Source of the DNA: Actinomycetota bacterium
GTDB lineage: Bacteria; Actinomycetota; Acidimicrobiia; Acidimicrobiales; Ilumatobacteraceae
Assembly (NCBI GenBank): GCA_018882725.1
Contig: VERK01000002.1
Location: 1 to 41,842 of the forward strand
Direction: 5' to 3'
Length of the DNA: 41,842 nt
Notes under the pieces: model-generated
Databases searched by the model: none
Seen by the model: only the letters and a program-made list of their open reading frames with translations
What the model was told of the DNA's origin: nothing
Position numbers and translations under genes: made by a program
Shown: piece after piece, positions 25,905-32,312 of the stretch
Numbering within the stretch: the first letter of the stretch is position 1
Layout: the number at the start of each line of letters is the position of its first letter

Positions 25905-28868
25905 TCACGCACCCAGCAGAGTGAGAGCCCGCGAGATTCGCTGCTGCGCCTCGCCAACCTTCTCTTGGTAGAGGCCGAGATCACCATCGCGCAGAGCCTC
26001 GTCGGCCTCGTCGAACAGAGCCTCGGCTTCTTCGAGCAACACGACCGGATCGTCCGATGTCACTCCCGGCGTGGTCGGAGTTGTGGAACCACCAGTTGAG
26101 CCCCCTGATGTGGAGCCCGACGTGGAACCAGACGTGTCGGTTCCGGTATCGGCACCGTCGTCGGCCTGACCCGAACCGTCGTCGAACACTTCACCAAGAT
26201 CGACATCGGCCTGCGGGAACAAACGGTTGATCGCATCCGACAAGGTGTCGCCGATCACCGAGCGACCGTCGTACCAAGCCAGCACTCGACGCACGAACAC
26301 CTGCTTCGAACCCGGATCGTCGGGGCGCACATAAAGCGGGCGTACCCACACCAAGCCGTCACCCACTGGGAAGAACTGCAACTGACCAAACACCACACGA
26401 GAACCACGCTGGTCGAGCAAGGTGATCACCGGAGCAATTTCGGTGTCGCTCTGCAATTCGGCGGCCACCGTGGCCGGCCCTTCCGGCAACGACCCGTCGA
26501 TGCGGTACACCGTGAGTTGACCGTACGTCTCGGGTTCGCTCGACACGACCATCACCGCGCGGAGTTCCTTACGGGCGTCATCGGACGAGAACGGAACGAA
26601 CGGGCGCAACAACGAGAACTGCGAGCTGTCGCGATCGGGTGCGTGGAAGAACGTGTAATACGGCTCGAAGCGGCTCACGTTGGCGTCAGCCACGTCACCG
26701 GTATTGGCCTGGCTGGCCTCGTCCACCAGTGCGACTCCGGCTGCGGCGTTCGACACCTCAGGTTCACGCGGGGCGGCCTGGGCCACACTCCACGCCGCGT
26801 CGCGGTTGAAGAACTGATCGGCATCGGCGAACTGATAACGGCCGTACAGGTTGGTCTGAACACGGAACAGATCTTCGGGGTAGCGGAAGTGCTGACGCAG
26901 TTGGTCGGGCACCTGATCGCCAGCGGTGAACAGACTCGGATACGCCTTCGACCACGCGCGGATGATCGGGTCGGTCGGATCGATCACGTAGAGCGTGACG
27001 TCGCCCGAGTACGCATCGATCACGGCCTTCACGCTGTTGCGGACGTAATTGAAGTTGTGATTGAGGCCCGATCCAGGTGTGAGTTGATCGGTGTTGGCCT
27101 TCTGCGCGTACGGGTAACGCGAGGTGGTGGTGAACGCATCGATGACCCACTTGACGTCGCCGTCGACGACCACCGGGTAGGGGTCGGCGTCGAGATGCAA
27201 GAAAGGCGCCAATTTCGTGACTCGATCGCGCACGTCACGCACGTGGAGCAGACGCGAATCGCTCTTGATCAAGCTCGAGCCGAACAAGTTGAACTCGCCG
27301 AAGTGCACAGCCATCGCGACGCGGCGAAGCGAGGAGTTGAGTCGAATGCCACCATCACCGGCGTACTCTTCGGGCTCGGTACCCGGACAGGCCTGCTCGA
27401 CCTGATCGGTGTTGACGATCGCATAGCCCGGCTGCTGAGTACCCACGTACAACTGCGGACGATCGACGTCGATCGGCGCGTAAATGGGGCGGCCATCACT
27501 CGTGATGCGACTGGCCGAAGCGGCCACCACACCGCAACCATGGGTGTAGATGAGATGGCGCGACACCCACGTCTTGTTGGGGATTCCGGCCGAGTTCAGT
27601 TCGCGCGCCGCCACGAGCGTCTGCTGCACGCGACCGTCGATCTCGTAACGGTCGACATCGAGGTCGTTGATCGAATAGAACGCCAGCTGACCTTCGTCGA
27701 GCGAGAAGCGGTCGCGCATCTCGGTCACGTCGAGCAAACGGGCATCGGCCAGGGCGGCCGAATCGTTGACCACTTCCTCGGTCGATACGTCGCCGAGCGA
27801 GACGGCTACGGTCTGCACCTTGTCGAGACCCATCGCTACCTGGGTGGCGTCGATGTTCCGCTCGATGTAGGGCCGTTCACGAGTGGTGACGTTCGGCTGC
27901 ACCACGAAGCGCTGAATGACGGCTGGGTACACCGCGCCAGCGATCACGGCCACCAACGCCCACAACGCCATCGACAACAGCGGAAGTCGCCATCCGCCCC
28001 AGCGCAAGCCGGCGAGGAACAACGCCGCCACGAGAAGGCTCACGAGAATCAGCAAGTTGATGGCCGGCAGTTGTGCCTTCACATCGGTGTAGGTGGCTCC
28101 CTGCACCACTCCACGCGTGGAAACGGTGAGTTCGAAGCGCTGCAGCCAGTAGTCGACCGCCTTGATGGCGGCGAGCAACGCGAACATCACGCTGAGTTGA
28201 ATGCGAGCACCACGGGCGACTCGTTCGCCCGGCGTCTGAACGCGAATCGAACCATTCAAGAAGTGGAGGATCGCCGAGAGAATCACCACGAACACGAGGG
28301 CCGCGAAGGCCCAGTCGATCACGTACGTGAGGAACGGCAGGCGGAACACGTAGAACCCGACATCGACGCCGAACTGCGGATCGTCGGTGCCGAAACTCTG
28401 CGAGTTACGGAAGAGCAACCACGACTGCCACTGGCTGGTGGCCGGCAGACCCACCAACAAACCGAACACGATCGACACCGCGAAGCGCAGCAAACGCGAA
28501 CGACGTCCGATGATCTGGCGGTACCGCTCGACGACTTCTCGCTCAGGCCCAGTGGGCAAATCTTTGGGGGCGAGTCGCTCAGCCAGCGTCAGGCTGAACA
28601 GACAGACGACGGCGAACGCGGCGCTGAACATCGCACCGAGCAGAACCTTCGCCCACAGCGAATCCCAGAACACGCTGCTCTGGTCGACCGAGTCGAACCA
28701 CAGCGCGTCAACATAGAAACTGGCCAGTTGTCGTGCCGAGAGCACGAGCAACAACAGGATCGCCGCAACGACGATGAGGATGATCCGCCCGCGCGACACC
28801 CAACGGGGTCGGCCGGTCGACGACGACCGGCGGCGCGGACCACGGGGAAGGTCCGAGGGGATGCGCAC
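25905..28868 (-). CDS. UPF0182 family large membrane protein
   Basis: ASFYVDALWFDSVDQSSVFWDSLWAKVLL...YVRNSVKAVIDAYSGDVTLYVIDPTDPIIRAWSKAYPSLF, the characteristic UPF0182 segment. Confidence 0.95.
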   Translation of the reverse strand: MRIPSDLPRGPRRRSSSTGRPRWVSRGRIILIVVAAILLLLVLSARQLASFYVDALWFDSVDQSSVFWDSLWAKVLLGAMFSAAFAVVCLFSLTLAERLAPKDLPTGPEREVVERYRQIIGRRSRLLRFAVSIVFGLLVGLPATSQWQSWLLFRNSQSFGTDDPQFGVDVGFYVFRLPFLTYVIDWAFAALVFVVILSAILHFLNGSIRVQTPGERVARGARIQLSVMFALLAAIKAVDYWLQRFELTVSTRGVVQGATYTDVKAQLPAINLLILVSLLVAALFLAGLRWGGWRLPLLSMALWALVAVIAGAVYPAVIQRFVVQPNVTTRERPYIERNIDATQVAMGLDKVQTVAVSLGDVSTEEVVNDSAALADARLLDVTEMRDRFSLDEGQLAFYSINDLDVDRYEIDGRVQQTLVAARELNSAGIPNKTWVSRHLIYTHGCGVVAASASRITSDGRPIYAPIDVDRPQLYVGTQQPGYAIVNTDQVEQACPGTEPEEYAGDGGIRLNSSLRRVAMAVHFGEFNLFGSSLIKSDSRLLHVRDVRDRVTKLAPFLHLDADPYPVVVDGDVKWVIDAFTTTSRYPYAQKANTDQLTPGSGLNHNFNYVRNSVKAVIDAYSGDVTLYVIDPTDPIIRAWSKAYPSLFTAGDQVPDQLRQHFRYPEDLFRVQTNLYGRYQFADADQFFNRDAAWSVAQAAPREPEVSNAAAGVALVDEASQANTGDVADANVSRFEPYYTFFHAPDRDSSQFSLLRPFVPFSSDDARKELRAVMVVSSEPETYGQLTVYRIDGSLPEGPATVAAELQSDTEIAPVITLLDQRGSRVVFGQLQFFPVGDGLVWVRPLYVRPDDPGSKQVFVRRVLAWYDGRSVIGDTLSDAINRLFPQADVDLGEVFDDGSGQADDGADTGTDTSGSTSGSTSGGSTGGSTTPTTPGVTSDDPVVLLEEAEALFDEADEALRDGDLGLYQEKVGEAQQRISRALTLLGA

Positions 28869-28877
28869 ACGCGCAGG

Positions 28878-30794
28878 CTAGTTGCGCACAGGAACAAGTG
28901 CACAGCGGCAGCCCGCATGTGCTGGTGCGTGAGTGTGACCTGTGGGGAACGCATCGCCTCCACAGATTGCACCCGCCAACGAATTGTCTTCTGCATCAGG
29001 GCAACCCGGTCCAGCCGGATCGAACTTCCAACATACGTTCATGTCGGGAGTGAGTGCCGACAACGCGCCGCGCCCGAAAGCGGTGTACGCGATGTCGTCG
29101 ATGTGCTCGTCGACGATCTGGTTCTTCCATTCGCGATACACCGAACGCACGAGCGATGACAGTTCGGCGTTGCTCCCACCGGCCTGTGAGATCGAACGGC
29201 TCAGTCGTTCGCGCAACGGTTCGACGAAGGCGGTGATGATCGCCTCGTCGACGGCCTTCAATTGCGGAGCCACCATCTCGGCCAAAGCCTTGTCGGACGG
29301 GACCGACCCGCTCGTGTGGATCGAGCGCGCACCCGCAATGGCGGCCGACTTCACGGACGCCGACAACGCCGAGCAGAACCGCTTGGTGTGATCGGACTTG
29401 GGCCCGACGATCGCGTCGAGTGTCTTGACGACAGCGCGACCACGGAGAATGTCGAGTACTTCGTTCTGCTCATCGGCCAGAACTCGCTTGATCTTGCGAC
29501 CCATCGTCAACACGAGCGGCACCAAGATTTCGTCGCGCGATTCGAACGTGGTGACCGAATCAGCCAGATCATCGAGCTTGGGCGACGGGGTCACCGCCTT
29601 CGGAGTCGACTTCGGAGCTTCCTCCACGGCTTCCATCGGAGCCGACGCGCCTGACTTGCTGTTGGCCTCCTTGGCCACCGACTCGGCGCTGGCGCGACGC
29701 AACTTGGCGAAGATGTCATCGACCGGAACGGCCGGACGGGCCGCCGACTTCACCGGTTCGGAGTGGGCCGGTTCGGCCGGAGTGGGTTCGGTCTTGCCGA
29801 ACAACTGAACGACGTTCGACGGCTTGGGGGTCTCGACGACGGGCTCGACCACCGGCGCGGGCGTTTCCACGGCAACGGTTTCCTCGACTGTGTCGACCTC
29901 TTCGACTACCGGTGCGTCGACGACCACCGAGTGCACTTCTTCCATCTCGGCGACAGTCAACGAGGCCGTGGGGTTGTCGATACTCGGGTGACGCACCACG
30001 ACGTGCTCGTGCACTTGCGTGTCGGCATCGTCGCGATCCTGGTCGTAGAACTGCGTCGGCATCGGACGACGCATCGACTCATGCATCTCGTCGGCCTGCA
30101 CCACGATCGGAACCGGTCCGGTGGTGTTGGCCAGATTCACGAACTCCGACGGCTCGTCACCCGCGTCAGCAAGGTCGCGCAACACGTCGTCGGTCGCGAT
30201 CCGTGCGCGCTCGAACGACTGCACCAAACGGTCGCGACCGTGAATGAGGTCTTCGATCTGTTCGCGGGCGAGTTCGCGTCGGCGGGCCACATCGGCCAGC
30301 ACGCGCTCGCGGTACGCACGCGCTTCTTCCACCATGTCTCGGCCTTGCTGCTTGGCCATGAGGATTTCGGCCTCGGCATCGGAGGCGGCGTCCTGTCGGC
30401 GGCGGGCCGCTTCGAGTTCGGCTTCTTCGCGAATACGGGCGGCGTCTTCGGTGGCGTCACGGAGCAGGCGCTGGGCGGTTTCTTCGGCCCGGGCCCGGAT
30501 CTTGCCGGCGGCTTCGCGGGCGGCCTGGATGATGCGGGCGGTCTCTTCGCCCAGCATTTCGGTGATCGCGTCGTCGTCGAGCTCGGCCGGGATGAACGGC
30601 GAGCCCTCCGGACGGTTGGCCACTTCCCGCTCGAGGAATCGCTCGCGCTCCTGGAGGCGCGACAACTCGGCAGCGACCATGCGCAGGAAGTCGCGGACCT
30701 CGGTTGGGTCGAATCCGCGGCGACTGGTCGGGAACGAGGCCCCGGCAACGGCGGCCGGGGACGACGGATCAGGACGCGAAAATGAAATAGCCAC
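28878..30794 (-). CDS. DivIVA-domain coiled-coil protein with C-terminal phage Mu gpF-like Cys/His motif
   Basis: N-term ASFPTSRRGFDPTEVRDFLRMVAAELSRLQERERFLE (DivIVA); C-term VCWKFDPAGPGCPDAEDNSLAGAICGGDAFPTGHTHAPAHAGCRCALVPVRN (MuF-like HxxCRC). Confidence 0.8.
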   Translation of the reverse strand: MAISFSRPDPSSPAAVAGASFPTSRRGFDPTEVRDFLRMVAAELSRLQERERFLEREVANRPEGSPFIPAELDDDAITEMLGEETARIIQAAREAAGKIRARAEETAQRLLRDATEDAARIREEAELEAARRRQDAASDAEAEILMAKQQGRDMVEEARAYRERVLADVARRRELAREQIEDLIHGRDRLVQSFERARIATDDVLRDLADAGDEPSEFVNLANTTGPVPIVVQADEMHESMRRPMPTQFYDQDRDDADTQVHEHVVVRHPSIDNPTASLTVAEMEEVHSVVVDAPVVEEVDTVEETVAVETPAPVVEPVVETPKPSNVVQLFGKTEPTPAEPAHSEPVKSAARPAVPVDDIFAKLRRASAESVAKEANSKSGASAPMEAVEEAPKSTPKAVTPSPKLDDLADSVTTFESRDEILVPLVLTMGRKIKRVLADEQNEVLDILRGRAVVKTLDAIVGPKSDHTKRFCSALSASVKSAAIAGARSIHTSGSVPSDKALAEMVAPQLKAVDEAIITAFVEPLRERLSRSISQAGGSNAELSSLVRSVYREWKNQIVDEHIDDIAYTAFGRGALSALTPDMNVCWKFDPAGPGCPDAEDNSLAGAICGGDAFPTGHTHAPAHAGCRCALVPVRN

Positions 30795-30853: not shown

Positions 30854-32002
30854 TCAGCCGCGTGTGACGGGTTGGCCTCCCCAACCTTCGAGCGCAGCGA
30901 GCGCCTCAGAGAGACTCGAGACCGTGGCGATCTCCAACGACGATCCCACCGCGCGGCGCGCCGCTTCGACATCGGCCGGGTCCTGTCCGGCCGGAACGAT
31001 GAAGTAGCGCGCACCCGAGCGCTGAACCGCGATGGCCTTCTGAACGAGCGCGCCGATCGGACCCACCGAGCCGTCCTCGGCGATCGTGCCCGTGAGGGCC
31101 ACTCCCCCGGGCGGCGACAACTCGCCCGGCGACAACTCGTCGATGAGTGCCACCGTGAACGCCAGGCCAGCCGATGGTCCGCCGATCTCGTCAGTGTCGA
31201 TGCCGATCTCGAAGGGCAGCTTCACCGTGCGCGTGTCACGGGCGTTGAATCCGATGATCGTGCGTTTCGGATCGTCGGGACTGGCCATGAGTTCGACCTT
31301 CACCGTGCGCACTTCGTCGGCCGGAGCATCGAACGGGCGCAGCACGAGACGAATCACGTCGCCGGGCTCGGCATCGGCCAACGCCTTCGACAGATCAGTC
31401 ACCACGTCGATGTCAATCGCGTCGTCGGCCGATCCGGTGTCGTCAGCAGTGAGGTCGACCTTCACGATCGTGTCGCCCACCGACAGCACACGGCAGGCGC
31501 GAAGTTCGGGAGCATCCGGCGGGCAGAGTGCCGGGTCGAAGCCGCCCACCTGAGCCGGACCCATGTCGAACGACGCATCGAGTCCGAGATAGTCGAGCGC
31601 AACGAACGACGCGATCTCCTTGGCCGTCGACATCGCACCGAGTTGGACCGTGCGGTTGGCGTCGGGATCGCAGTCGCCGAATCGCTGCTCACACGTCTGC
31701 ACGTCGACGTATGGATCGATCCAGCCCATGAACGACTGGAGTGGAGCCAGCTCACTACCCAGAGCGGTCACGAAACGAACGCTGCGATTCGGCTCGAAGA
31801 CACCCACACCGTCAGTTTCGCCGTCGATCGAGAGGCGGGGAGCCACCAACTTGGCCCGACCCGGCGCGGTTTCGAAGCGTTGCATCGGCCACACCATCGC
31901 CCCGATCACGACGACCATCACGAGAAAGGCCACAGTGGCGAACGGAACGCCCCACACCGGACGAGTCGTCCCGGCTACTTTGTCGTTTCGAGTGTCACTC
32001 AC
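30854..32002 (-). CDS. Membrane-anchored PDZ/Lon-like serine protease (YlbL-like)
   Basis: N-terminal TM; ELMASPDDPKRTIIGFNARD; Lon catalytic EIGGPSAGLAFTVALIDEL...VALTGTIAEDGSVGPIGALVQKAIAVQRSGARYFIVP (Ser/Lys dyad). Confidence 0.92.
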   Translation of the reverse strand: MSDTRNDKVAGTTRPVWGVPFATVAFLVMVVVIGAMVWPMQRFETAPGRAKLVAPRLSIDGETDGVGVFEPNRSVRFVTALGSELAPLQSFMGWIDPYVDVQTCEQRFGDCDPDANRTVQLGAMSTAKEIASFVALDYLGLDASFDMGPAQVGGFDPALCPPDAPELRACRVLSVGDTIVKVDLTADDTGSADDAIDIDVVTDLSKALADAEPGDVIRLVLRPFDAPADEVRTVKVELMASPDDPKRTIIGFNARDTRTVKLPFEIGIDTDEIGGPSAGLAFTVALIDELSPGELSPPGGVALTGTIAEDGSVGPIGALVQKAIAVQRSGARYFIVPAGQDPADVEAARRAVGSSLEIATVSSLSEALAALEGWGGQPVTRG

Positions 32003-32312
32003 TGATCTCACCGTTCGTGTCGCCGCGATTGCTGCCTTCGCCTTGCTGGCGTTGATCGCGGTCGGCTGGAGACAGCCTGCCAGACAACGTGCGCGGAGCC
32101 ACCGCACCGAGGCGACGACGTCGCATCGATCGACTCATTCAACGACGCACGGCGTCGACGAACCCGTCGTCACCCTGGGTGACGACGTGAAACAACGAGT
32201 GCTACGTGTCACCGCGCTCGGAGGGATCGCCCTCGTGGTCAGTGCCGTGGTGGCCACCCTCGTGTCGGTTGCGTTGGCCTGGCTCGTCACCAACATCATC
32301 GATCGGCTCTGA
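31992..32312 (+). CDS. Small membrane protein of unknown function
   Basis: GTG start, two TM segments (VRVAAIAAFALLALIAVGW; GGIALVVSAVVATLVSVALAWLV). Confidence 0.5.
   Translation: MSLTDLTVRVAAIAAFALLALIAVGWRQPARQRARSHRTEATTSHRSTHSTTHGVDEPVVTLGDDVKQRVLRVTALGGIALVVSAVVATLVSVALAWLVTNIIDRL

Follow-up and report, generated by a model that had tools for sequence, protein, structure and literature searches.

The window, i.e. the whole 41,842-nucleotide stretch of DNA that was analysed, harbours on its minus strand an ORF of 638 amino acids at 28878–30794 (GTG start at 30794, stop at 28878–28880). Other mechanically called ORFs overlap this interval, but only the 638-aa ORF has family matches and orthologues, including one in a genus-level relative (G071) with 94% identity across the full-length protein. 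The product joins a DivIVA-type N-terminal half to a C-terminal domain of the phage MuF kind and is flanked by genes of two membrane proteins. The layout suggested by an earlier sequence-only reading (DivIVA N-terminus, coiled coil, acidic Pro/Val linker and Cys tail) was confirmed at this position, and the N- and C-terminal sequences quoted there match the ORF exactly. The features of the locus are as follows:

28878–30794, minus strand: DivIVA-MuF fusion gene, 638 aa, GTG start; the architecture is the same across the class
30399–30749, minus strand: DivIVA domain (residues 16–132), the predicted pole/septum-targeting N-terminus and the start of the coiled coil (PF05103, structure profile, model)
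30165–30398, minus strand: remainder of the conserved coiled coil (residues 133–210; conserved columns, model)
29559–30164, minus strand: acidic Pro/Val linker (residues 211–412) with a conserved short element, IFAKLRRA, near residue 361 (dN/dS)
28881–29558, minus strand: predicted MuF domain (residues 413–638; PHROG 2662, Pfam MuF, TIGR01641, hhalign, Foldseek)
28902–29030, minus strand: Cys/His tail of the MuF domain, W589 to C631, W...C.D..DN...FPTG...H..C.C (135-sequence count, dN/dS)
25905–28868, minus strand: UPF0182 membrane protein, next gene downstream (PF03699, E 1e-241)
30854–32107, minus strand: PDZ-Lon (YlbL/SepM-like) membrane protease, upstream (Lon_C PF05362; the SepM family scores below its cut-off)

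The three genes are closely spaced, with 9 nt between the stop of the fusion gene and the start of the UPF0182 ORF, and with the PDZ-Lon ORF ending 59 nt upstream of the DivIVA-MuF ORF. Comparison with the G071 orthologue gave dN/dS values of 0.035 for the DivIVA domain and 0.033 for the MuF domain (0.027 for its Cys/His tail) versus 0.143 for the linker; hence both ends of the fusion are under strong purifying selection, while the linker is much less constrained. Within the linker, residues F362, K364 and R366 stand out as conserved alignment columns.

The assignment of the N-terminal half rests on a PF05103 match at residues 16–132 (36.6 bits against a cut-off of 28), on a profile of 29 relatives (A5), which matches the solved structures of DivIVA, Wag31 and GpsB with E values of 4e-8 to 6e-5, and on a predicted model in which a break separates a short helix from a long helix or coil. 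The protein thus shares with DivIVA/Wag31 the N-terminal membrane-targeting segment and the coiled coil, but it is longer, carries MuF and sits between PDZ-Lon and UPF0182. By the NCBI cut-off it does not count as a canonical Wag31 orthologue: the Wag31 equivalog NF050102 scores only 34.3 bits, far below the required 260. In the genome from which the window was taken (89% complete) the fusion is the sole DivIVA match, and the same holds true for G071, G153, G039 and G190; other relatives encode a second, shorter DivIVA elsewhere in the genome.

The C-terminal domain was compared with phage proteins mostly at the level of the family, using an alignment of 40 relatives (A1). PHROG 2662, which comprises portal proteins with a C-terminal MuF part, was matched by 35 of the 40 homologues (best E 7.5e-15), in one case over the whole domain (485–706 of 717 residues), TIGR01641 by 28 and Pfam Phage_Mu_F (PF04233) by 13 (best 6e-6). 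Taken alone, the window sequence gave a weak match to TIGR01641 (E 0.2) and no match to Pfam MuF. An hhalign comparison of the host family with 11 phage MuF proteins reached 96% (E 1.3e-9) over the tail, and a profile of phage MuF proteins recovered 60 of 140 host C-termini at E<1e-3; it matched none of 9,880 other ORFs and none of 140 shuffled tails. The AlphaFold (AF2) model of the domain (pLDDT 96, pTM 0.92) is mostly helical with a compact tail. A Foldseek search of a viral library returned 32 structures at E<1e-3, the named ones being mostly MuF, minor capsid, head-morphogenesis and portal or portal-fusion proteins; the corresponding fold search of the PDB yielded no meaningful match to solved structures. 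As judged from the profiles and the predicted fold, residues 413–638 are a phage MuF domain and the resemblance is more than chance. The opposite notion, that the CRC tail is a coincidence in a domain unrelated to phage MuF, could draw only on the weakness of the window's own tail when searched alone, and it is refuted beyond serious doubt by the family profiles, the 9,880-ORF specificity test and the fold search, all of which concur. The MuF-like C-terminus claimed in the sequence-only reading has thus been borne out over the last ∼225 residues, and so has the conservation of its CRC ending among orthologues; the lack of either was to have refuted the claim.

Among the 135 homologues with a complete tail, over which all tail residues were counted, both cysteines of the CxC are invariant (135/135), and the tail histidine and the tail tryptophan are each retained in 133, a level of conservation far above chance. 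The preceding CxxC is more variable: both cysteines are present in 108 sequences, only the first in 21, including the window protein, and only the second in 6. No sequence lacks both (0/135), but a rule that at least one of them is always kept was discarded as not significant, about 0.9 such sequences being expected by chance. In phage MuF proteins the CxxC, HP and CxC are all invariant. Prophage portal-MuF proteins of related genomes, which are matched by host and phage profiles alike, share with the host form the C..C..N and the P.G before the histidine. The Cys/His tail is inferred to act as a structural knot, probably with bound zinc, fastening the domain at its C-terminal end; zinc binding remains a guess, and one CxxC cysteine is missing in 27 of the 135 proteins, that of the window among them. 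The window protein ends 7 residues past the last tail cysteine, and no toxin family was found after MuF. The protein thus does not show the toxin domain after MuF that would mark a MuF polymorphic toxin.

The domain was found in 135 of the 198 sampled genomes of the class Acidimicrobiia, i.e. in about two thirds, and in 14 sampled genomes outside the class, in some other actinobacterial families. Its carriers include the cultured relatives Aquihabitans sp. G128, Acidiferrimicrobium sp. IK and Aciditerrimonas ferrireducens. Many of the listed absences within the class fall in a single genus (g40 of family f21) with genomes of ∼1 Mb. The gene order proved to be the same well beyond the window: in 131 of 134 loci the fusion gene is followed on its own strand by UPF0182 (41/41 in the class set, 13/13 outside the class and 77/80 in GTDB), and in 91 of 121 class loci PDZ-Lon immediately precedes it (38/41 and 53/80 in the class and GTDB sets, respectively). 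Some GTDB loci come from the same genomes as those with G handles, so that these counts overlap. Where PDZ-Lon is more distant, a few kb upstream, a WalK-like sensor kinase gene lies between in the three loci that were examined. Loci with such a non-adjoining PDZ-Lon include L149, L150, L152, L153, L155, L159, L046 and L235; the interval of L046, L153 and L235 holds a large sensor kinase (PAS-HAMP-HisKA), that of L235 being closest to WalK, and in L153 the kinase is followed by a lipoprotein-like ORF with no Pfam match. Where the fusion gene is missing altogether (families f12, f14 and f21 and the outgroups G205 and G206), PDZ-Lon adjoins UPF0182. The direct neighbourhood of these two genes, given in the sequence-only reading for mycobacteria, which lie outside our sample, was seen in the sampled lineages that lack the gene.

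Several lineages have retained only a part of the fusion. In one (L204, L213) MuF occurs without the DivIVA domain, still between PDZ-Lon and UPF0182, whereas L181, L307 and L309 have kept DivIVA together with UPF0182 and have no MuF; some members of family f23 also have DivIVA without MuF. The ends of the fusion are therefore separable, and the constant feature is the place beside UPF0182. In L161–L164 the helices of the domain are kept and the Cys tail is lost; one genome (G013; L161, L162) has two whole trios of PDZ-Lon, DivIVA-MuF and UPF0182, both without the Cys tail. Since UPF0182 is retained by lineages without MuF, without the tail or without both domains, UPF0182 can exist in the absence of either domain. 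Separately, MuF without the DivIVA domain was also noted beside UPF0182 in L202.

The relationship to phage proteins is closest for the portal-MuF proteins, namely those of PHROG 2662, of Arthrobacter phage Mufasa8 and of prophages found in genomes of the same order (e.g. G501, G507). The whole C-terminal domain aligns with them, including the motif C..C..N...G..(W/F)P.G...P.H; the phage form, however, is fused to the portal and lies in a packaging module, while the host form resides on DivIVA in a housekeeping locus. With SPP1 gp7 and Mu gpF (PF04233, TIGR01641) the host domain has the predicted fold class and the Cys/His tail in common, but the genes of these phage proteins adjoin portal and terminase genes and the proteins enter capsids (PMC5576092, PMC6316719). 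No portal or terminase was met beside the host gene, which almost always lies between PDZ-Lon and UPF0182, and no other virion genes adjoin it. The host rows, 54 in a tree that also contains 13 phage MuF domains, all fall on one side of a branch with an SH-aLRT support of 97, although the phage sample was small, being limited to an annotated phage collection and prophages. Together, the tree and the synteny favour one old capture from a portal-MuF gene followed by vertical descent. In agreement with this, the three operon proteins are co-inherited, their distances being correlated with r of 0.45–0.67 as against permutation maxima of 0.21–0.26. The direction from phage to host is inferred because roughly one in three tailed phages carries MuF (PMC5576092), as against few host lineages. 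It thus seems that the cell has put a part of a virus to work, and the view taken in the sequence-only reading, that a portal-associated domain of phages was domesticated on a DivIVA scaffold, is supported by the profiles, the fold, the synteny and the tree alike; of the roles mentioned there, that of a toxin-like effector is not supported, no toxin domain having been found, and neither is that of a DNA sensor, given the acidity of the domain (see below).

As to function, we tentatively propose, at somewhat short of even confidence, that the protein is an adaptor of the cell pole or septum, in which the DivIVA scaffold carries a domesticated portal-MuF domain that docks a partner. The two domains and their conservation, the selection and the fixed operon are supported by sequence comparison and structure prediction; localisation, interaction and phenotype are inferred. 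The DivIVA end would self-assemble where the membrane is curved, at poles or septa, and the MuF end, which docks at the portal ring in phages, would now bind a host protein at the cytosolic face of the membrane. The favoured candidate for this partner would be the multi-pass UPF0182 protein encoded directly downstream, PDZ-Lon may act on the same complex from outside, and the outcome would be that UPF0182 (and PDZ-Lon) is gathered or regulated at growing poles or division sites. The function of MuF in phages is unknown (PMC5576092), but the SPP1 MuF protein gp7 attaches to the portal and, while not required for assembly, increases infectivity (PMC6316719), and because of this portal binding a docking role on DivIVA is the simplest transfer. 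The choice of UPF0182 is a best guess that relies on synteny only, which indicates a shared pathway and not contact; the constant adjacency, its persistence in L204 and L213 without DivIVA, the doubled trio of G013 and the co-inheritance of the three genes speak for it. A membrane quality-control or polar complex, as inferred before, is plausible. In Bacillus subtilis YlbL clears the cell-division inhibitor YneA (PMC6051672), which by analogy may fit a division or growth-zone theme for the locus. The upstream neighbour is a PDZ-Lon protease of the YlbL/DdcP kind; here, however, it is merely a neighbour of the DivIVA-MuF gene and has no known substrate.

The N-terminus of UPF0182, MRIPSDLPRGPRRR (28788–28868 of the window), contains a short basic R-x-P motif that recurs in many genomes of the class with the gene and is absent from the outgroups sampled. 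It was considered as a MuF-specific binding mark and dropped, as it also occurs beside MuF-less DivIVA; it is retained as a lead only.

The rival that survives best, though it is unlikely, needs no partner protein at all: the MuF half would be a cap for the assembly or stability of the DivIVA polymer, acting through homo-oligomer contacts. The largely helical fold of the domain and its compact tail would suit such a role, as would the loss of MuF from proteins that keep DivIVA; yet the domain persists in the one lineage without a DivIVA domain, and in the sampled loci it is almost always found beside UPF0182. Less probable still is a DNA-binding MuF half that anchors the chromosome at the pole, so that a single protein would achieve what DivIVA does in other bacteria via RacA, ParA or ParB. 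Links between DivIVA and the chromosome are known (PMC10714820), and gp7 is called a DNA-binding protein, at least in a title cited by the SPP1 review (PMC6316719). However, all 40 MuF domains sampled are acidic (mean pI 5.3, net charge −21 to −1), which makes tethering less likely, and the operon contains membrane proteins, not segregation genes. An anti-phage device, i.e. a MuF decoy placed at the pole to capture the portals of incoming phages or to interfere with their assembly, appears very improbable: the portal binding of MuF in phages (PMC6316719), the prophages with portal-MuF proteins in the same order and the existence of defence by a block of virion assembly (PMC10884400) lend it some appeal, but defence genes are mobile and fast-evolving, whereas this gene is vertically inherited, operon-bound, conserved and under purifying selection, and no defence genes were noted beside it, albeit without a dedicated search for defence families.

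The literature searched yielded no paper in which DivIVA is connected with MuF or with Acidimicrobiia. It is possible, if on balance doubtful, that the adaptor represents the first known cellular MuF family, in which a phage portal-docking domain has turned into a permanent receptor at poles or septa for a membrane machine of the host (UPF0182 together with PDZ-Lon); in some genomes this domain would reside on the only detectable DivIVA-type protein. In that case a portal-like ring or binding surface might exist on UPF0182 or on its complex, and a virion part would be added to the short list of phage pieces in bacterial cell-polarity machinery. A conserved non-phage MuF with a confidently predicted fold and with its likely partners as operon neighbours would offer a direct route to the MuF binding target, as well as a first point of access to UPF0182, a membrane protein that is widespread and curated only as “uncharacterised” or “hypothetical”. 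Lastly, four public MAG records (L207, L218, L233 and L236), labelled Bifidobacterium breve or Acidobacteria, were found to hold an Acidimicrobiia-type locus, and their labels look wrong.
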